A stretch of DNA of 26,605 nt from a virus. The stretch covers positions 1 through 26,605 of IMG/VR virus record IMGVR_UViG_3300033141_001636, one strand, 5' to 3'. The translations under genes and the position numbers were made by a program. The notes beneath the pieces were generated by a model. The model worked only from the letters and a program-made list of their open reading frames with translations. It was not told the DNA's origin and made no database searches. Positions 1,281-26,068 of this stretch are shown here, one piece after another. Positions within the stretch are counted from its first letter, which is position 1; every line of letters begins with the position of its first letter.

Positions 1281-1427
1281 ATGACAAGAGTTAAATCACT
1301 CAAACCAAAAGCAGGTTATCAGCACAGACAACACAGGAAAGTAAGAAAAGTTAAAGATAAAGTGATAGATGTGTATAATTCAATTAAAAAAAAAGATAAA
1401 AAAAGATTAAGAAAAATAAATGTATAG
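1281..1427 (+). CDS. Small basic protein of unknown function (48 aa)
   Basis: A 48-residue reading frame starts 11 bp after the terminase stop and ends 8 bp inside the next gene, as expected of a translationally coupled phage gene. It is extremely basic: about 20 of 48 residues are Lys or Arg, with RVKSLKPKAGYQHRQHRKVR at the N-terminus and a KKKDKKRLRK tail. It has no membrane segment or cysteines. Such composition fits a nucleic-acid-binding or packaging accessory protein, but I recognise no family. It is kept because it fills the gap exactly and its composition is not simply that of the AT-rich background. Confidence 0.5.
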   Translation: MTRVKSLKPKAGYQHRQHRKVRKVKDKVIDVYNSIKKKDKKRLRKINV

Positions 1428-3897
1428 ATACCACGCAATAAAGAGAATAGATATTAATGGCAGAACTTATAATCCCGGAGAGATTATCATCAGTGAAACA
1501 AAAATAGATGGATTAAAAGAAATTGGATCAGAGATAATAATGTCAGTTAATATAAAATCTAAACAAAGAAAATCACAAATAAAAAATACAAAGAAAATAT
1601 ATATAAAGCCAGAGATTAAAGGTAAATTAGCAGATATTATAATACCACACCACAATAGGCACGATCTTTTAAAAAATACATTAGAGGCAATACCATTAGA
1701 TATATTTAATGTTTTTGTTATAGCCGGTGGCAGTTTTGCTCGGAATTGTAATCTGGGCGCAAAGTTAGCAAAGACAGATAATTTGATTTTTATGAACGAT
1801 GACATAGAGCCGGATATAGGCCAGATTATTGAGGCCTGCGAGAATAAAGCAGATTTGGTTGGCTTCTCAGAAGTATTATCAAATGAAGGAAAAAGAATTG
1901 TAAAGGGTATTGGTTGGAGTAGAAATTTATTGTCAAACTTAATGGAAAATCAAAGAGATGTTCAAATACCCTCGGGATTTTTATTTAGAGCAAAAAAGAA
2001 GGCCTGGGAGAAGTTAGGCGGATTTGACGAAACATTTGAGAACGGCGCAGAGGATTTAGATTTAGGATTAAGAGCAAGAGAAATGGGAATGACTATGGAT
2101 TATATTAAAGGAGAACCAATAGTTCATTACCATTCACAATCAGAAGGCAGGTTTAGTAAAGTATTAGAAAATAAAGATTACTTTCAAAAGTTATGGCCAG
2201 ATAAAAGATTAAAAAAGGCATTAGGATTTGACAAGCCAATAAAGAGAGTTCTTTTGGCAAACCAGTTTCTTGAAAACCTTAGTGGAACAGAAACATTTAC
2301 TTATACATTTGGAAAAGAATTAGAGTGCAGAGGATATAAGGTAGATATTTTTACATTTGAACCCGGCCGGTTATCAGAACCATTTTTTACAATAACACCA
2401 AAAAGCGAAAACAAGTTGCGCAAAGAATACGATTATATTTTTATAAATCACAATACCTGTTTGGATTATTTAAAAGACACAAACGGGGTAAAAGTTTTTA
2501 CTTCACACGGGATATATCCAAAGTTAGAACAACCAAAAGAGGGAGCAGATTTTTATGTAGGAATATCAAAAGAAGTTAAGGATTATTTATTAAGCAAAGG
2601 ATTTGACGCAAAGATAATTCATAATGGAATTGATTGTGACAGATTTAAACCAACAAAACCAATACATAAGAAACTAAAAAGCGTTCTTTCAATATGTAAA
2701 GATTTAGACAAAGATTTTAACGACGCTAACGAGAGAATAGAAATAGCTTGTGATAAATTAGGAATAGAATTTAAGAAGGCCAGAGATGTTTGGGATTTAG
2801 AAAAAAGAATGAATGAGGTTGATTTAGTTGTTAGTTTAGGCAGAGGAGCATATGAGGCAATGGCCTGTGGCCGGGCAGTTATAGTATTTGATAAACGGCA
2901 TTATATGAAAGAGAGCAAGGGTGACGGAATAGTAACAGAGGGCAATATCAATGAGATATTAAAAAACAATTTTTCAGGCCGGAGATATAATTTAGATTTG
3001 AGCATTGATGATATTGTTGAGGAATTTAAAAAATATGATAAGTCAATGGGAGAGTTTAATAGACAATACGCATTAGAACATTTTAACATTAAAAAACAAG
3101 TAGATAAGTATTTTGACCTAGCAAACACAAACCGGGACGATAGAGTTTTATTTGTAGGCAGTTCAAAAACAGAATATGGGATAGCAAAGCAATTAGAAAA
3201 GCAGTTGATCAGAAAAGGATTTAAAATAGGATATGGCGGAAAGAGAATTTGTTATGCGAACGATTTAGGAACAATAGATCCAATAGATGGGAGTTTAATA
3301 ATTATAGAGAACCGATCAACATTCAGGAGGGCAATAGAAAGTGGCGCAGATCATATATTTTATAGCCAAAAGAGTTGCGAAGAATACTTTGATCCAGATA
3401 AATCATCTTATTTGCCTTCCGGGATAGATAAGGAAATCTTTAATGATATGAAATTAAAGAGAGAAATAGATATAGGATTTGTTGGAAAGGAAGCATACAC
3501 ATCACGAGTAAAGTTTGTTAAATACTTGAAAGATAAATACGGTGATAGATTTTCAAAACAAGAAGGAATATTTTTTGAGCAAATGGCAGAGTTCTATAAC
3601 AAATGTAAAATAGTGGCAAACCAATCGGCAGGCAATGATATAAATATGAGAATGTTTGAGGCGACAGCTTGTGGTGCATTATTGATAACACAGAAAGTTC
3701 CTTATTTAGACGAGTTGTTTGAGGCCGACAAGGAAATAATAGTTTATTCAACGATGAGAGAAATGATTGAAAAAATAGATTATTATTTAGAACACGATAA
3801 GGAGAGAGAGAAAATTGCCCGGGCCGGGCAGAAAAGAACATTAAAGTATCACACATACCAAGAGAGAGTTAAAGAGATTATAAAATATTTAAAATGA
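1420..3897 (+). CDS. Three-module glycosyltransferase (GT2-like + two GT-B-like)
   Basis: 825 residues. Residues 1-45 resemble a short phage domain (AIKRIDINGRTYNPGE). Residues 68-260 form a GT-A fold family 2 transferase: ADIIIPHHNR start, NDD at 126-128 as the nucleotide-sugar/metal site, and GAEDLDLG at 209-216 as the catalytic acidic motif. Residues 275-598 look like a GT-B enzyme, with HNGIDCDRFKP and YEAMACGRAVIVF. Residues 603-825 are a second GT-B-like unit with IGFVGKEAY and FEATACGALLITQ, as in CgeB/Glyco_trans_1_2 proteins. It overlaps the upstream mini-gene by 8 bp and the downstream transferase by 4 bp. Probable role: glycosylating virion proteins, DNA or host surface; the acceptor is unknown. 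No base-modifying enzyme is visible in the window. Confidence 0.85.
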   Translation: MYRYHAIKRIDINGRTYNPGEIIISETKIDGLKEIGSEIIMSVNIKSKQRKSQIKNTKKIYIKPEIKGKLADIIIPHHNRHDLLKNTLEAIPLDIFNVFVIAGGSFARNCNLGAKLAKTDNLIFMNDDIEPDIGQIIEACENKADLVGFSEVLSNEGKRIVKGIGWSRNLLSNLMENQRDVQIPSGFLFRAKKKAWEKLGGFDETFENGAEDLDLGLRAREMGMTMDYIKGEPIVHYHSQSEGRFSKVLENKDYFQKLWPDKRLKKALGFDKPIKRVLLANQFLENLSGTETFTYTFGKELECRGYKVDIFTFEPGRLSEPFFTITPKSENKLRKEYDYIFINHNTCLDYLKDTNGVKVFTSHGIYPKLEQPKEGADFYVGISKEVKDYLLSKGFDAKIIHNGIDCDRFKPTKPIHKKLKSVLSICKDLDKDFNDANERIEIACDKLGIEFKKARDVWDLEKRMNEVDLVVSLGRGAYEAMACGRAVIVFDKRHYMKESKGDGIVTEGNINEILKNNFSGRRYNLDLSIDDIVEEFKKYDKSMGEFNRQYALEHFNIKKQVDKYFDLANTNRDDRVLFVGSSKTEYGIAKQLEKQLIRKGFKIGYGGKRICYANDLGTIDPIDGSLIIIENRSTFRRAIESGADHIFYSQKSCEEYFDPDKSSYLPSGIDKEIFNDMKLKREIDIGFVGKEAYTSRVKFVKYLKDKYGDRFSKQEGIFFEQMAEFYNKCKIVANQSAGNDINMRMFEATACGALLITQKVPYLDELFEADKEIIVYSTMREMIEKIDYYLEHDKEREKIARAGQKRTLKYHTYQERVKEIIKYLK

Positions 3898-4721
3898 ATA
3901 TAGATAGTTTTGTTATAGTAATTAGCAGACGATATCCAATAGCAAAGTGCTTGAAAGCTATTGCTAAAGCGGATATACCACGCAAGGATTTATATTTACT
4001 CTTATATTTAGATACACAAGATAGATTATTGATTGACTATTGTAAGAATTGGATTGATTATCACGGTCAAAAATGGTTATCAGCGAATATGATTAAGACA
4101 AACAGGACACCTGTTTATACAAACAGAGTTGAGGATTACCCGGAAAAATGGGAAAGGATAATTGAGAACCTGAAAAAGATTAATACACATTTAGATTTTA
4201 GCGAGATTGTCTTTATGGTTGAGGACGATACTATAATACCTAAGAATGCATTTAAAAAACTTTATAGGAGAATTAAGAGTGATAAGGAGATAGGTTGTAT
4301 TCAAGGAGTAGAAGCATTAAGAAAGGCAGGAGAACACGGGCCTTGTGGTGCTTGGTTATTAGATTTATGTATAAGGGGAAAAATAAGGACAAAAGTCGGA
4401 TTGGGTGCAAAAAAAACAGGAATACAGCAAATAGATGGTGGTGGATATTATTGTTGGGCATATAGACAAGAGGCGATCAAGAAAATAAAGCTGAGGTGGT
4501 CATTAAATGGTTGGTGTGGCCCGGATATTTGGACTTGGTATGACATAGGCCAGAATAATTGGAAAACTTTAATTGATTGGAGTGTATGGTGTGGCCACAT
4601 TGAAGACGATGAAAAGATTTTAACACCAGAAGGCACAAGAAACTGGCTATACGATTTTAGTAATGGGACAGAGCAGTCCCCAAAAATGGATTTTAACTAT
4701 GATTACAAAAACCTGTCCTAA
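3894..4721 (+). CDS. GT-A-type glycosyltransferase-like protein
   Basis: 275 residues, starting in an ATGA overlap with the three-module transferase, so the two are probably made together. The N-terminus (DSFVIVISRRYPIAKCLKAI) is a GT-A Rossmann-like start. FMVEDDT at 108-113 is the DxD-like acidic site, preceded by a hydrophobic strand. Later motifs DGGGYYCWAYRQEA, NGWCGPDIW and VWCGHIE resemble the acceptor side and terminal His of family 2-like enzymes. No membrane segment is seen, so it should act in the cytoplasm. It may add a second sugar to what the upstream enzyme starts. The fold call is reasonable; substrate and acceptor are not visible. Confidence 0.7.
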   Translation: MNIDSFVIVISRRYPIAKCLKAIAKADIPRKDLYLLLYLDTQDRLLIDYCKNWIDYHGQKWLSANMIKTNRTPVYTNRVEDYPEKWERIIENLKKINTHLDFSEIVFMVEDDTIIPKNAFKKLYRRIKSDKEIGCIQGVEALRKAGEHGPCGAWLLDLCIRGKIRTKVGLGAKKTGIQQIDGGGYYCWAYRQEAIKKIKLRWSLNGWCGPDIWTWYDIGQNNWKTLIDWSVWCGHIEDDEKILTPEGTRNWLYDFSNGTEQSPKMDFNYDYKNLS

Positions 4722-13105: not shown

Positions 13106-13903
13106 ATGTTAGATAGAATATTATTAGACAAAGCGTTATTTGATGGCGATGCGGTTCAAACAAAAACTGTTTCAGATATAGGCACAGGAGTAGATGCAAT
13201 ATATGAACTACTTGCCCAGATAGGATTATCAGACACAGGAAGCGGGGCAGATGCAATTAGCGCTATATTATCACAGTTATCATTAAGTGACACAGGAGTA
13301 GGAGCAGAGGCCATAGACGAGATATTGGGACACATAACAGCATCAGACGCAGGAACAGGTGCAGAAGCGCTTGATATACTGGCACAGATCGCTTTAAGTG
13401 ACACCGGGACGGGAGCAGACGCGCTAAACCTTTTAATAAGTATAGCATTATCAGACACTGGATCAGGAAATGAGGCATTAGATTTATTGGTTGGTATAGC
13501 ATTAAGTGATACTGGAATAGGAAATGATATAGTTAGTTCTTTGGCAATAATAGTAAATCAAAGCGATGCCGGTGTAGGATTAGACGCATTAAATATATTA
13601 GCAAGATTAGTTTTATCTGATACAGGGACAGGAGTTGAAACGGTAGGAGTAAGTAAAGAAATAACTTTATCAGATACCGGAGTAGGAGTTGAGGCCGCGA
13701 ACATATTAGTCAACATAGCATTAAGTGATAGCGGCTTGGCCCAAGAAGCATTAAATATAATAGTAAGATTAAGTTTAAGTGATAGCGGAGTTGGCGCGGA
13801 CGTATTAGAAGTTTTTAAAAAAATAAATCCTTATTGTCCGGGAACGACACCTTATTCAAAAAAAACAAGCCCGTATGATAATATGCCTAACATTTGTAAT
13901 TAA
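13106..13903 (+). CDS. Protein of twelve ~18-residue SDTGxG repeats
   Basis: 265 residues. From about residue 20 to 244 it is built of twelve units of 18-20 residues with consensus LSDTGxGxxALxxLxxIx, for example LSDTGTGADALNLLISIA and LSDTGVGAEAIDEILGHI. Each unit alternates a polar SD(T/S)G turn with an amphipathic hydrophobic helix or strand, as a solenoid would. The DNA copies are diverged, so the repeat is maintained at protein level. The C-terminal 24 residues are different (PYCPGTTPYSKKTSPYDNMP). No signal peptide or membrane segment is seen. Its place right after the fibre suggests a virion-attached spacer or fibre accessory. I do not recognise the family. Confidence 0.6.
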   Translation: MLDRILLDKALFDGDAVQTKTVSDIGTGVDAIYELLAQIGLSDTGSGADAISAILSQLSLSDTGVGAEAIDEILGHITASDAGTGAEALDILAQIALSDTGTGADALNLLISIALSDTGSGNEALDLLVGIALSDTGIGNDIVSSLAIIVNQSDAGVGLDALNILARLVLSDTGTGVETVGVSKEITLSDTGVGVEAANILVNIALSDSGLAQEALNIIVRLSLSDSGVGADVLEVFKKINPYCPGTTPYSKKTSPYDNMPNICN

Positions 13904-23173: not shown

Positions 23174-23959
23174 ATGAATACATTAAGAGATAAAATTAAA
23201 CTAGGATTACCATTTAAGGACTTCAAATGTAATACAATCACACAACATTTTGGAGTTAATGGTAGTTTTTATAAGCGTTATGGTTTAAAGGGCCATAATG
23301 GAATAGATCATTTAGCACCCCGTGGGACACCCATATTGGCCGTATGCGACGGGTATTGCTCAGGAGTCAAAACAACCAAAGAGGGCTATGGAATCTACGT
23401 CAGGCAAGCCTCAGGCGATATAGAATTGAACGGAAAGACAATTAGGTTAGATATTGTTTATGGCCATATGGAAAGAGTTAATTTACACAAAGGAAATAGG
23501 ATAATGAAAGGACAAGTTGTTGGGTGGGCCGATAACACCGGATACTCTATGGGCAACCATTTACATTTAGGAGTTAGGATTATGAATAGCGACGGCAATA
23601 TTGAGAATTACAAAAACGGATTTTTAGGATATTTTGATCACTATCCTCTTTTAGAAAATAAAATTAGTTGGTTGACTTATAGAAAATGGAAAGAGATATC
23701 TAAAATAACCGTGCCAGAATGGGAAATCACGCCGATAGATAAAAGATACGACATATCCGGGGAGAAAAGATTACCTTGGCCGACTTATATTTGGTTAGGG
23801 ATTAAATTACGCAGGCAGTTAACAGAGAGAGAACACGTCGCATTAGTTTATGGACATTGGTCATTTGAAGAAGTATTTAAAAATAAAGTTGGAGAACATT
23901 TTTTGTATTACACAAAGGACGAATATATAAATAGAATTAAAAATAATTTAGGTTTATGA
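23174..23959 (+). CDS. Endolysin: M23 (LytM-type) zinc metallopeptidase
   Basis: 261 residues. M23 enzymes cut peptide cross-bridges of peptidoglycan. All key residues are visible: H41 and D45 in GHNGIDH, H98 in VYGHM, and H129/H131 in GNHLHLGV. The domain spans about 20-140. The remaining 120 residues (WLTYRKWKEISKITVPEWEI, RKLPW-like and WLGIKLRRQLTEREHVALVY) are of unknown type and may bind the wall. There is no signal peptide, so release needs a holin. It ends in an ATGA overlap with a small membrane protein. Confidence 0.9.
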   Translation: MNTLRDKIKLGLPFKDFKCNTITQHFGVNGSFYKRYGLKGHNGIDHLAPRGTPILAVCDGYCSGVKTTKEGYGIYVRQASGDIELNGKTIRLDIVYGHMERVNLHKGNRIMKGQVVGWADNTGYSMGNHLHLGVRIMNSDGNIENYKNGFLGYFDHYPLLENKISWLTYRKWKEISKITVPEWEITPIDKRYDISGEKRLPWPTYIWLGIKLRRQLTEREHVALVYGHWSFEEVFKNKVGEHFLYYTKDEYINRIKNNLGL

Positions 23960-24126
23960 ATTATTCAAAAGAACTTTTACTTTTTGTTGCGACAACACTT
24001 GTTTCAGTTGGCGCTGTTCAAATTGCAGAAAATGTTTGGAGAGGAGTTGCTTTATTAGTTTTGGGTGCTTTAATCTTTGTAGGCAGAGGATTTTATAAAA
24101 AATATCTCTACAAACCAGAGGAATAA
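23956..24126 (+). CDS. Small membrane protein, second holin or lysis accessory (56 aa)
   Basis: 56 residues beginning in the endolysin stop codon (ATGA). Two hydrophobic stretches can be seen: LLLFVATTLVSVGAVQIA and VALLVLGALIFVG, separated by a short polar turn (ENVWRG) and followed by a basic tail (RGFYKKYLYKPEE). This fits a two-helix holin or antiholin. Coupling to the endolysin supports a lysis role. The stop is one base before the first DnaA-box repeat starts. Confidence 0.65.
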   Translation: MNYSKELLLFVATTLVSVGAVQIAENVWRGVALLVLGALIFVGRGFYKKYLYKPEE

Positions 24127-24190
24127 GTTATCCACAGGTTAGGTAGTTTTTGGAGGTTGCTTTTTTTATTATATCAGGCATACTTATAAT
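24126..24190 (+). promoter_or_regulatory. Upstream control region of the DnaA domain IV gene
   Basis: 64 intergenic bases containing DnaA box 1, the tract GCTTTTTTTATT (24159-24170) and TATAAT (24185-24190) directly next to the ATG. That TATAAT is too close to the start for a leadered message. TTGCTT (24157) with CATACT (24179) could give a leaderless message but is weak. The box lies where a bound protein could block or help RNA polymerase, so autoregulation is plausible. Confidence 0.4.
24128..24136 (+). promoter_or_regulatory. DnaA box 1 (perfect consensus TTATCCACA)
   Basis: A perfect R1-type DnaA box, 54 bases before the start of a gene for a DnaA domain IV protein. It belongs to a longer shared sequence, AAGTTATCCACAGgTTAGG, found again at the other end of that gene. 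After it comes a GCTTTTTTTATT tract. Confidence 0.85.
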
Positions 24191-24427
24191 ATGAAAAAAG
24201 AACTATCAATCATACAAACAATTTGTGAAAAACACGGAGTTAGTATTCTTGAATTATTAGGTTCTGGCCGTAGAAAAAAAATAATAGATGCCAGAGTAGA
24301 TTTAGTTTTAGAATTAAAAAGTTTAGGACTTTCCTTAACTGAAACAGGAATTTTATTGGGTAGACGAGATCACGCCACAATAAGGAAATTATTGAAAAAA
24401 GGACAGAAAAAGTTATCCACAGATTAG
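24191..24427 (+). CDS. Stand-alone DnaA domain IV (DnaA-box-binding) protein
   Basis: 78 residues covering only the DNA-binding domain of the bacterial initiator DnaA: helices IIQTICEKHGVSILELLGSG, then RRKKIIDARVDLVLELKSLG and the signature LSLTETGILLGRRDHATIRK. Host DnaA is about 450 residues with an AAA+ ATPase, which is absent here. Arg in the RRKK loop and Asp-His of RDHAT are the box-contacting residues in E. coli DnaA; the next Thr is Ala here. Two perfect boxes lie on either side of the gene, the second inside its last codons. Likely roles are a repressor/regulator of those sites, a competitor of host DnaA, or part of phage origin recognition. It is unlikely to load helicase by itself. 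Confidence 0.88.
   Translation: MKKELSIIQTICEKHGVSILELLGSGRRKKIIDARVDLVLELKSLGLSLTETGILLGRRDHATIRKLLKKGQKKLSTD
24413..24421 (+). promoter_or_regulatory. DnaA box 2 (perfect consensus TTATCCACA)
   Basis: Second perfect DnaA box, same orientation as the first and 285 bp away, read as codons for L-S-T near the end of the DnaA domain IV gene. The 19 bp context AAGTTATCCACAGaTTAGG differs from copy 1 by one base. GCTTTTTTTATT follows again, forming here the inverted repeat GCTTTTTT/AAAAAAGC (24429-24451), with TATAAT at 24453. Confidence 0.85.
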
Positions 24428-24452
24428 GGCTTTTTTTATTTTTAAAAAAGCG

Positions 24453-24458
24453 TATAAT
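24453..24458 (+). promoter_or_regulatory. -10 element (TATAAT) before the putative ncRNA
   Basis: A perfect -10 hexamer 32 bases after DnaA box 2. Transcription would begin near 24465. No good -35 is visible at 16-18 bases (only a T-rich tract), so an activator or the A/T tract itself may help. The DnaA box lies just upstream of the polymerase footprint. Confidence 0.4.
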
Positions 24459-24464
24459 AAAAGT

Positions 24465-24580
24465 ATGGGAAATAAGGACAAAAATACGAATAGAAATCTT
24501 AACCGAAAGGGCGAAACAATCAGAAATGGTTGGCAGTTATTCGTAGCTGTGTCCTTCGTCCTTTCAGTTAAGACTTTTTT
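24465..24580 (+). ncRNA. Putative structured RNA with a three-way junction
   Basis: An 18 bp outer stem pairs 24498-24515 with 24555-24572: 16 Watson-Crick pairs, one G-U and one C-A mismatch. Inside are two hairpins. CAATC/GGTTG (24517-24521 with 24528-24532) closes an AGAAAT loop. GCAGTTA/TAGCTGT (24533-24539 with 24544-24550) closes a TTCG tetraloop. T6 follows the outer stem (24575-24580), so the 3' end would terminate itself. A TATAAT lies just upstream. Coding potential is poor. I match it to no known RNA family. It could be a small regulatory RNA, or a leader or terminator-like element for the gene downstream. Confidence 0.55.
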
Positions 24581-24591
24581 ATTTATAAAAT

Positions 24592-25242
24592 ATGGAAACG
24601 GAAAATAAAATTAAAAATTTTAGATGGAGATTAAAATCTATTGGAAGTATTTCTCATCACGATTCACAATGGAAAGAGATTTTTATTAAAAATGGTTTTA
24701 AATGGGAAGATTGGTGGGAAGGATATTGTAGTGGAATGTGTAATTTGACTGGAAGTTTTAGCGATGATAAAAGATATAAAAAAGGAATAATGAGTTTTCC
24801 ATCAATTTTTGGATTAAAAGGAGAAAATTTATTTATTAAATGGCTTTATACGGGGAAAAGAAAATTTTTAATACCTTTTTATAATTGGTTTGTTGCTTAT
24901 ATAAATAAACAAAAAAAAATATCAGATAAAGAAGAAAGAGAATGTAGGGAAAAATCTAAAAAAATTAATAATAAAAAAATTGAAAATGGTTGGATTTATC
25001 TTTTAAAAAGTAAAAATCTTTATAAGATAGGACGGGCAAAAAATATTCAAAGTAGAATTAAAACTTATAAGACAGAAAATCCTTTTGGAATAAAAATTAT
25101 AATTCAAAAAAAAGTAAATGATTATATTGGAATAGAAATAAAATTATTAAAAATGTTTAATGAAAAACAAATAAGAGGAGAATGGTTTAAATTGAATAAA
25201 GATGATATTAATAGAATTAAAAAATATTTAAATGAAATATAA
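24592..25242 (+). CDS. GIY-YIG (T5orf172/MUG113-type) endonuclease
   Basis: 216 residues. The C-terminal 85 residues form a GIY-YIG nuclease: GWIYLLKSKNLYKIGRAKNI supplies the WIY...YKIG pair and the Arg follows in QSRIKTY. The likely catalytic Glu is in GIEIKLLKMF, and RGEWFKLNKDDI is the typical ending. The N-terminal 125 residues (HHDSQWKEIFIKNGFKWEDW, GYCSGMCNLTGSF) are unfamiliar and may bind DNA. The gene is noticeably more AT-rich than the structural genes, which fits a mobile endonuclease. It sits between the putative RNA and the replication gene, overlapping the latter by 11 bp. Confidence 0.8.
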   Translation: METENKIKNFRWRLKSIGSISHHDSQWKEIFIKNGFKWEDWWEGYCSGMCNLTGSFSDDKRYKKGIMSFPSIFGLKGENLFIKWLYTGKRKFLIPFYNWFVAYINKQKKISDKEERECREKSKKINNKKIENGWIYLLKSKNLYKIGRAKNIQSRIKTYKTENPFGIKIIIQKKVNDYIGIEIKLLKMFNEKQIRGEWFKLNKDDINRIKKYLNEI

Positions 25243-26050
25243 TATTAACATAAATCAATTAGTTTTATCAAAAACAAATCTTGATTTAATAGATTGTGCT
25301 ATTATTGATTATATTTATTATTATTGTAATAGCAAAAATGAAAAAATAGAAAGCCAAAGAATTAAGAATGAAAAAGGTATTTGGACTTGGATAAACTATC
25401 AAACACTTTTAGGGGATATGCCATTGATCAAAATTAAGAGTTCAGGTGCTTTAACTCCAAGAATAAAAAAAATTGAACAAGAGGGTTATATTGAAACTTT
25501 TAGACAAGGAAATCAAAAACTATTCATTAAATTGAATAGTAAAATTGACGAGCTATTCATAGAAACAAACAGAGCTGTTCACGAAAATGAACAGAGCTGT
25601 TCACCAGAACGAACGAATAATAATACTATAAATAATTATACTAAAAATATAGAGTATATTTTTGAATATTGGAATAAACAAAAAATAATAGTTCATTCTA
25701 AATTGACTGATAAAATAAAAACAAAGATTAAATCAGCATTAAAAGATTATAAAAAGGATCAGATATTTTTGGCCATAAGAAAATATAAAATGGTATTAGC
25801 TGGCCCGGAATATTTTTGGACATATCAATGGTCTTTGGATAAATTTTTACATCGTGGATTAACAGACTTTGTAGATAGCCCGATTGATAAGTGGAAAAAA
25901 TCAAACGGATTTGAAAAACCAAAGAAGCGCAAAGTTTATTTTAATGGAGATCCAGTTGTAAAAAAGAACGGCAAGCAATGGGTAATTCAAAATGGAGATT
26001 GGCGAGAGTTTGTCGGTGACGAAAAAGAATTAGTTATTAAATTTGAATAA
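25232..26050 (+). CDS. Phage replication initiator, lambda O-like architecture
   Basis: 272 residues. The N-terminal ~105 residues look like a winged helix-turn-helix initiator domain (NLDLIDCAIIDYIYYYCNSK, IWTWINYQTLLGDMPLIKIK, SSGALTPRIKKIEQEGYIET). An Asn-rich linker (PERTNNNTINNYTKN) leads to a helical C-terminal part, YIFEYWNKQKIIVHSKLTDK and EYFWTYQWSLDKFLHRGLTD, common in phage replication proteins that recruit helicase or its loader. Direct repeats with a 22 bp period lie within the DNA coding the linker, as with lambda O and its origin. Basic segments follow (KPKKRKVYFNG). The helicase loader or helicase itself should be outside the window. Confidence 0.7.
   Translation: MKYNININQLVLSKTNLDLIDCAIIDYIYYYCNSKNEKIESQRIKNEKGIWTWINYQTLLGDMPLIKIKSSGALTPRIKKIEQEGYIETFRQGNQKLFIKLNSKIDELFIETNRAVHENEQSCSPERTNNNTINNYTKNIEYIFEYWNKQKIIVHSKLTDKIKTKIKSALKDYKKDQIFLAIRKYKMVLAGPEYFWTYQWSLDKFLHRGLTDFVDSPIDKWKKSNGFEKPKKRKVYFNGDPVVKKNGKQWVIQNGDWREFVGDEKELVIKFE
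25548..25613 (+). repeat. Three 22 bp iteron-like repeats (candidate origin)
   Basis: Units begin at 25548, 25570 and 25592, exactly 22 bp apart. Units 2 and 3 share AACAGAGCTGTTCAC without mismatch (25568-25582 and 25590-25604). Unit 1 is degenerate (GAGCTATTCA). Unit 3 is centred on a 16 bp inverted repeat, TGAACAG-AG-CTGTTCA. Very AT-rich DNA follows (about 25612-25700), suitable for melting. All lie inside the replication initiator gene. Confidence 0.55.
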
Positions 26051-26068
26051 AAGGTCGGTTTAATTAAA

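Follow-up and report, generated by a model that had tools for sequence, protein, structure and literature searches.

GafY of Caulobacter is homologous to domain IV of the replication initiator DnaA, binds at promoters and, with IHF, switches on the gene transfer agent (GTA) cluster, acting together with the antiterminator GafZ, and in GafA of Rhodobacter a DnaA-like DNA-binding domain at the N-terminus is needed to activate most GafA promoters (as described in sources among PMC9632790, PMC9638019, and PMC11150451). A domain IV protein is also encoded by the virus record IMGVR_UViG_3300033141_001636, the whole 26,605 bases of which are referred to here as the window and which carries terminase, portal, major head, and tail tape measure genes. 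The protein has 78 residues and consists of this domain alone. Three sites with a DnaA box (S1, S2, and S3) are found on the phage map, each at promoter-like sequence, and the second is followed by a predicted structured leader RNA. With moderate confidence, the protein is considered here to be a transcription factor that serves the early region of the phage and not a replication initiator.

The likeness to GafY and GafA, which were compared by description and not by sequence, would lie in a domain IV-type activator of a phage-derived system, acting on its own and other promoters, with terminators downstream of the promoter; in the phage these features are predicted. In the GafY and GafA systems, as far as the sources describe them, the site is far upstream of the -35 and action depends upon IHF, whereas the predicted site here begins 18 bp before the start of the -35 (29 bp at S1 of the window). 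The likeness to DnaA is in domain IV and in boxes at its own promoter, with a 9-mer box in the window phage, but the phage protein is without the AAA+ domain, domain I, and domain II. The initial annotation of this DNA knew of no described system with exactly this design. For the protein alone this was wrong, GafY and GafA being domain IV-type activators and domain IV-type proteins being common in phages. Literature titles and the beginnings of abstracts, a coverage that leaves out most subscription journals, gave no phage domain IV operator circuit among the matches listed.

The domain IV protein

The features of the locus, with positions in the window, are:

24126-24141, + strand: proposed operator S1, AGTTATCCACAGGTTA, with its perfect 9-mer at 24128-24136, immediately 3' of the stop codon of the upstream open reading frame (ORF)
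24157-24184, + strand: predicted promoter of the domain IV gene, with -35 TTGCTT (24157-24162), a spacer of 16, and -10 CATACT (24179-24184), weak at a score of 6.33
24191-24427, + strand: gene for the DnaA domain IV (Bac_DnaA_C) protein, 78 residues, no AAA+ or other domain
24411-24426, + strand: proposed operator S2, AGTTATCCACAGATTA, with its perfect 9-mer at 24413-24421, located over the final codons of the domain IV gene
24431-24458, + strand: predicted promoter of the RNA, with a poor -35, TTTTTT (24431-24436), a spacer of 16, and -10 TATAAT (24453-24458)
24465-24585, + strand: predicted structured leader RNA, from fold statistics and the comparison of two phages

Residues 6-69 of the protein match PF08299 (Bac_DnaA_C) with 36.7 bits, against a Pfam cut-off of 31.5. 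Matches to DnaA models are confined to the C-terminal end of those models, with no AAA+ ATPase domain III found in the ORF. AlphaFold, using a four-sequence alignment, gave a structure with a mean pLDDT of 93.2, for which the best match in the PDB is 1j1v, E. coli DnaA domain IV with a DnaA box (TM 0.89 by query length, Foldseek E 5e-3). A profile made from the same four sequences also ranks the 1j1v chain at the top (E 2e-18). That the protein equals DnaA domain IV and nothing else, as first annotated, is thus borne out by the ORF, the Pfam match, and the predicted fold. The window protein keeps the residues aligned to R399, D433, and H434 of DnaA (numbered by hand on alignments), of which D433 and H434 are presumably contact residues. 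The T435 position is A or V in the two phage proteins compared here, the window protein and that of the related phage G097, and in the latter H434 is R. In DnaA, R399 has a role in the minor groove and T435 is a base-contact residue (source among PMC9632790, PMC9638019, and PMC11150451). Neither phage protein has a PHROG match (the window protein at E 0.1, with a further PHROG search at E 1).

Sites on the phage map and in a related phage

Perfect copies of the DnaA box TTATCCACA are found at 24128 and 24413, both on the + strand, and these are the only ones in the window. Boxes with up to one mismatch number 7 in the window against 8.9 expected, therefore only the perfect matches are notable. 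Both are within the sequence AAGTTATCCACAG[G/A]TTAGG, and each is followed by GCTTTTTTTATT and then TATAAT. The two boxes, their common orientation and context, and the downstream TATAAT had been annotated initially and were all confirmed by sequence scan; the third site, the fixed spacing between box and promoter, and the structured RNA that follows the second box were not part of that annotation.

A sister record, IMGVR_UViG_3300033148_002827, links the end of the window to its start, with 99.96% identity across both overlaps, giving a closed map of 36,050 bp. The third perfect box is at 27034 (+) of this map, 429 bases past the end of the window (L101:1083-1091, minus strand). The map therefore has three perfect boxes (24128, 24413, and 27034, all +), where 0.48 are expected by base composition. 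None of 200 Markov-1 simulated genomes had at least three perfect boxes, and the 16-mer AGTTATCCACAG[AG]TTA was present in none. The sites are 285 bp apart (S1 to S2), with 2.6 kb to S3.

The related phage G097, a record of 37,005 bases found among capsid relatives, has a syntenic domain IV ORF of 74 residues (L117:1891-2115). Its product scores 39.6 bits against PF08299 and is 58% identical to the window protein over the alignment, or 57% over 68 residues. From terminase to tape measure, most genes of the two phages are 48-81% identical, with lower values for the distal tail genes. At E 1e-4 no match between the phages is seen for the lysis genes or for much of the early region, but the domain IV gene and six ORFs of the early region are matched. 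Retention of the domain IV gene and of the RNA, despite differing lysis and early genes, supports the transcription factor reading.

G097 also has three sites, AGTTAGTAACAGTTTAGG, AGTTATCCGCAGGTTAGG, and AGTTATCAACAGTTTGGC. Their 9-mers, TTAGTAACA, TTATCCGCA, and TTATCAACA, vary in the centre of the box and none is perfect. A scan with AGTTANNNRCAGNTTA, allowing up to one mismatch and covering the closed map and three pieces that jointly span the G097 record, found exactly three sites in each phage, all on one strand of that phage. The letters AGTTA, CAG, and TT are invariant in all six. In each phage the sites are positioned before the domain IV gene, before the structured leader RNA, and before recombination genes. 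Four of the six begin directly or two bases 3' of a stop codon, and the other two lie across the 3' end of the domain IV gene. The retention of positions without retention of perfect boxes favours the phage protein over host DnaA as the reader of these sites, although the site comparison between the window phage and G097 is a single comparison.

Spacing between sites and promoters

The best σ70-like promoter was sought at offsets 5-59 behind each site, using a score with hand-entered weights. At five of the six sites its -35 is at an offset of exactly 18 bases, counted from the start of the 9-mer, with scores of 4.8, 13.6, 9.1, 9.6, and 8.4; these are all three sites of G097 and two of the three in the window phage. 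The exception is S1 of the window, where the -35 is at offset 29 (score 6.3), approximately one helical turn further, and where the promoter is also supported by the alignment with the upstream region of G097. Random sextets of positions did not reach the observed common-offset sum in 20,000 trials, nor did 20,000 drawn from an AT-rich pool. Background positions match the offset-18 score at a rate of 1.1% for S2 of the window, at most 0.07% for four others, and 18% for S1 of the window.

The predicted transcript start, read by hand, is at or adjoining an ATG for five of the six sites, including S1 of the window, which makes leaderless messages likely. The 9-mer begins approximately 52 bp upstream of this start, beside the -35 on one helix face. 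A site adjoining the -35 on one face of the helix is a usual place for an activator that contacts polymerase. This position makes the protein more likely to be an activator than a repressor.

The predicted leader RNA

Behind S2, the predicted RNA contains a long terminator-like stem, in which 24497-24514 pairs with 24556-24573, and a GAAA-loop hairpin, in which 24517-24522 pairs with 24527-24532. An 8 bp pseudoknot is possible between TACGAATA (24485-24492) and TATTCGTA (24538-24545). Its arms are invariant in both phages and therefore uninformative alone, and the same letters could make a UUCG hairpin. The pairings proposed for its outer part, GGACA with UGUCC and GGAUAC with GUAUCC, come from hand alignment only. 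In both phages the stem ends in a U run near the next ATG, and the leader resembles that of an attenuator or antitermination system.

Folding of 24462-24590 against shuffled sequences gave a z of -5.8, with none of 200 shuffles as stable, and the G097 counterpart gave -7.3, again with 0 of 200. The leader is the most stable 120-base stretch on the + strand of the map; the only one of 899 such stretches that is equal or lower overlaps it. In the two variable helices, 23 of 24 pairs hold in both phages, with 7 changed on both sides and 4 on one. When the partners are shifted by 1-3 columns throughout the structure, pairing falls from 97% to 34-48%. A short ORF overlaps the RNA (47 residues, 24465-24608; 33 residues in G097), but a protein reading of the leader is weakened by sequence changes that preserve the base pairs.

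No Rfam family reached its gathering score for the leader, and loose thresholds gave only microRNA models far below gathering. A model of the RNA (R1) searched against 20 sources found only the places from which it was built, in G097 and in two records of one phage, and the strands opposite to these. A consensus terminator scan of 23950-24650 found no terminator-like site, its loop limit of 8 leaving out the long stem. Behind S3 of the window phage there are likewise a short hairpin and a U run, and the S3 leader of G097 is without a stable fold. A separate motif, GGTCGG[AT]TT, recurs in both phages (26053-26061, map positions 27135 and 27465, and G097 L117:3740), in all cases on the + strand and shortly upstream of an ORF, with one copy within the hairpin behind S3.

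Genes associated with the sites

Genes were assigned to the sites by position only, by which S1 would control the domain IV gene itself. Two further genes are proposed to follow from S2 in the window phage:

24592-25242, + strand: GIY-YIG/T5orf172-type endonuclease ORF, between the RNA and the replication-type gene, with no G097 match at E 1e-4
25232-26050, + strand: ORF of 272 residues, proposed to be in the S2 operon, with a weak PHROG match to "replication initiation protein" (E 0.007)

The 272-residue ORF has no Pfam or NCBIfam match. In G097 the RNA is followed directly by a 238-residue ORF, without a Pfam match. The genes behind S3 include one of Rad52 type in the window phage and one of ERF type in G097, both of the single-stranded DNA-annealing type. 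Immediately before its S3, G097 has an ORF with σ70 region 4 (45 bits, L117:3305-3673), which is possibly a partner like GafZ. GafY has such a partner, whereas no sigma- or GafZ-like match was recognised among the six window ORFs scanned, a subset of those in the window.

Elsewhere in the window, the region between the terminase and portal genes (1420-4721) contains two ORFs of 825 and 275 residues that are glycosyltransferase-like by their residues, not by search. A 265-residue ORF at 13106-13903 is built of ALSDTGTGADAL-type repeats. The + strand of the 36,050-base map has a strong compositional bias, with 14,775 A, 9,688 T, 7,267 G, and 4,320 C.

Distribution

Many of the 50 best BFVD matches displayed for the window protein carry the name DnaA C-terminal. 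A tblastn search for domain IV-type proteins gave 55 records in the phage collection, some of which are clearly bacterial DNA, and a further search gave 47. From these, 18 phage records were picked by hand for comparison (17 from the first search and one from the second), leaving out unannotated faecal records, duplicates, bacterial-looking records, and several Pelagibacter phages, of which four of eight were sampled. Annotated products in this set range from 107 to 396 residues. No perfect box occurs in any of the 18, either in the 300 bp to each side of the gene or in the remainder of the 4.7-8.3 kb stretch compared, ten of these stretches having more than 50% G+C, where boxes are rarer by chance. 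One has TTATNCACA, inside the gene. Boxes beside the gene are therefore not a general trait of domain IV-type phage proteins. The longest flanking repeats are of 11 bases or fewer in the comparison phages, 11 (AT-rich) in G097, and 13 in the window, so that G097 does not stand out by exact repeats. A separate repeat scan of the 18 records had a minimum of 12 bases and was without a positive control.

Closer relatives of the system were sought with the domain IV protein in viral and genome contigs and with the two-member alignment, and only the sister record and G097 were found. The early-region protein search gave the same two, and the search with the RNA core added two records, both by chance. 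The DNA pattern for KIIDAR[VIL]D was found in ten other records, none with PF08299. Because each of these scans depends on exact matches to short peptide or DNA patterns, remote members may be missed. By tblastn, the window protein has no match in the phage collection at E 1, and the DNA of 23900-24700 has none there either. The G097 protein has 37 weak matches in that collection (E up to 10, best 0.1) and one plasmid record at E 1e-4. Among capsid and terminase relatives (10 records and 5 more) domain IV is present in G097 only, which says little because these are mostly fragments, several ending short of the site. The capsid alignment had no match in genome contigs.

The 17-mer AGTTATCCACAGRTTAG is found in 93 viral stretches, of which, the sister record aside, three pass the PF08299 cut-off (G034, G040, and G088) and one falls below it (G046). 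The loci of 3.1-3.2 kb around these four matches have no TTATCCACA, therefore this 17-mer alone is no marker of the system. Another virus record (L080:1104-1176) has two copies of AGTTATCCACAGRTTAG 56 bases apart, without a PF08299 match.

Function of the protein and its sites

If the protein is a transcription factor, the stand-alone domain IV would bind an extended operator, AGTTA-N4-CAG-N-TT, of which the window version contains a perfect DnaA box. It would bind three early-region promoters. The first would be its own, giving autoregulation, the second would transcribe the structured leader RNA up to the next genes (a homing-type endonuclease and a replication-type gene in the window), and the third would be ahead of the recombination genes. 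Bound beside the -35, the protein would contact polymerase and activate, and the terminator-like stem of the leader near the next ATG would probably add a second control, at termination. From the sites, their spacing, and the conserved fold we infer binding, promoter use, activation, and a function for the RNA. The activation of a phage-derived cluster by GafY, as described in the sources given above, counts in favour of this. A box-and-binder circuit had been suggested in the initial annotation, with several possible roles, and of these the autoregulation of promoters is best supported, the spacing being fixed in two phages.

Several observations weigh against this reading. At S1 of the window a runner-up promoter scores 6.03 at offset 35 (TATAAT at 24185-24190), at S2 the -35 is TTTTTT, with 1.1% of background positions scoring equally well, and at S3 of G097 an alternative at offset 11 scores 7.85 against 8.36. 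A consensus scan requiring 9 of 12 matches is without the S1 and S2 promoters of the window and lists five others, four on the opposite strand, compared with 2.4 ± 1.5 in shuffles. The six sites are orthologous pairs and therefore not six independent cases, a kinship that the random sextets ignore. A site near -48 is also compatible with repression. For the RNA, 3 of 500 shuffles match the observed pair counts and the evidence comes from two sequences. The subfamily itself was found in two phages only, by searches with short exact patterns.

It is unlikely, though less so than the other alternatives, that host DnaA is the main reader, with early promoters that sense the growth state and a domain IV protein that competes with DnaA and displaces it. 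All three window boxes are the perfect consensus, and DnaA is described as a transcription factor, its own gene included (PMC8203912). The G097 sites are imperfect, yet the AGTTA, CAG, and TT places and the promoter spacing are kept, and the recognition helix also differs between the phages (DHAT in the window protein, DRVT in G097). Competition with host DnaA, suggested initially, is possible in the window phage with its perfect boxes, but G097 keeps the gene and the positions with imperfect boxes. Related phages that keep the gene without the boxes had been named beforehand as evidence against the circuit, and here the outcome is mixed, since G097 has kept the gene and the site positions and lost the perfect boxes. 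A dominant-negative role, in which the protein blocks initiation at the oriC boxes of the host chromosome and the phage boxes merely serve its autorepression, is improbable. Domain IV alone should bind host boxes if its contacts are kept, and the equivalents of R399, D433, and H434 are present, but the T435 equivalent is A or V, H434 is R in G097, and the G097 sites are not the host box.

There is only a small chance that a phage replication origin is marked by the boxes and their protein, in which case domain IV would bind the origin and recruit host factors. Replication- and recombination-type genes are found nearby, and the annotation of Pelagibacter phage relatives is DNA replication initiation, although annotation by name is no test. 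The PHROG family phrog_27829, DnaA-like replication initiation protein, is a small domain IV protein like that of the window; it is weakly matched (E 0.008) by the domain IV protein of another phage (L104), but not by the window or G097 protein. The protein has no AAA+ domain, and GC skew is positive in each 1.5 kb step of the map, without a turning point. The sites do not form a cluster, with distances of 285 bp and 2.6 kb between them, and they share one orientation, each at a similar distance from promoter-like sequence; on this ground the origin suggested in the initial annotation is not supported. Least probable of all, and very much so, is that recombination has spread these repeated promoter blocks as sequences of module boundaries and that no dedicated reader exists. 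The operators are indeed at gene ends and the flanking genes differ between the phages, but neither the letters invariant in the six sites nor the kept spacing is easily explained if there is no reader.

Significance

More tentatively, the window would belong to a true phage in which an initiator domain free of its ATPase is the master activator of the early region, with a three-promoter regulon, an operator derived from the oriC box, and an unnamed pseudoknotted leader RNA that gates termination before replication genes. This complete picture is possible, but should be regarded as doubtful. Proteins of domain IV type are widespread in phages and several of them are named replication initiators by annotation, while the sequence evidence from these two phages points to promoter operators, which agrees with the GTA activators GafY and GafA. 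A system as compact as this, with a 78-residue protein, a 16 bp operator, and three promoters, may show how an initiator domain turns into a transcription factor. It may also show the joint drift of a protein and its site, together with a conserved structured leader RNA that is below every Rfam threshold.
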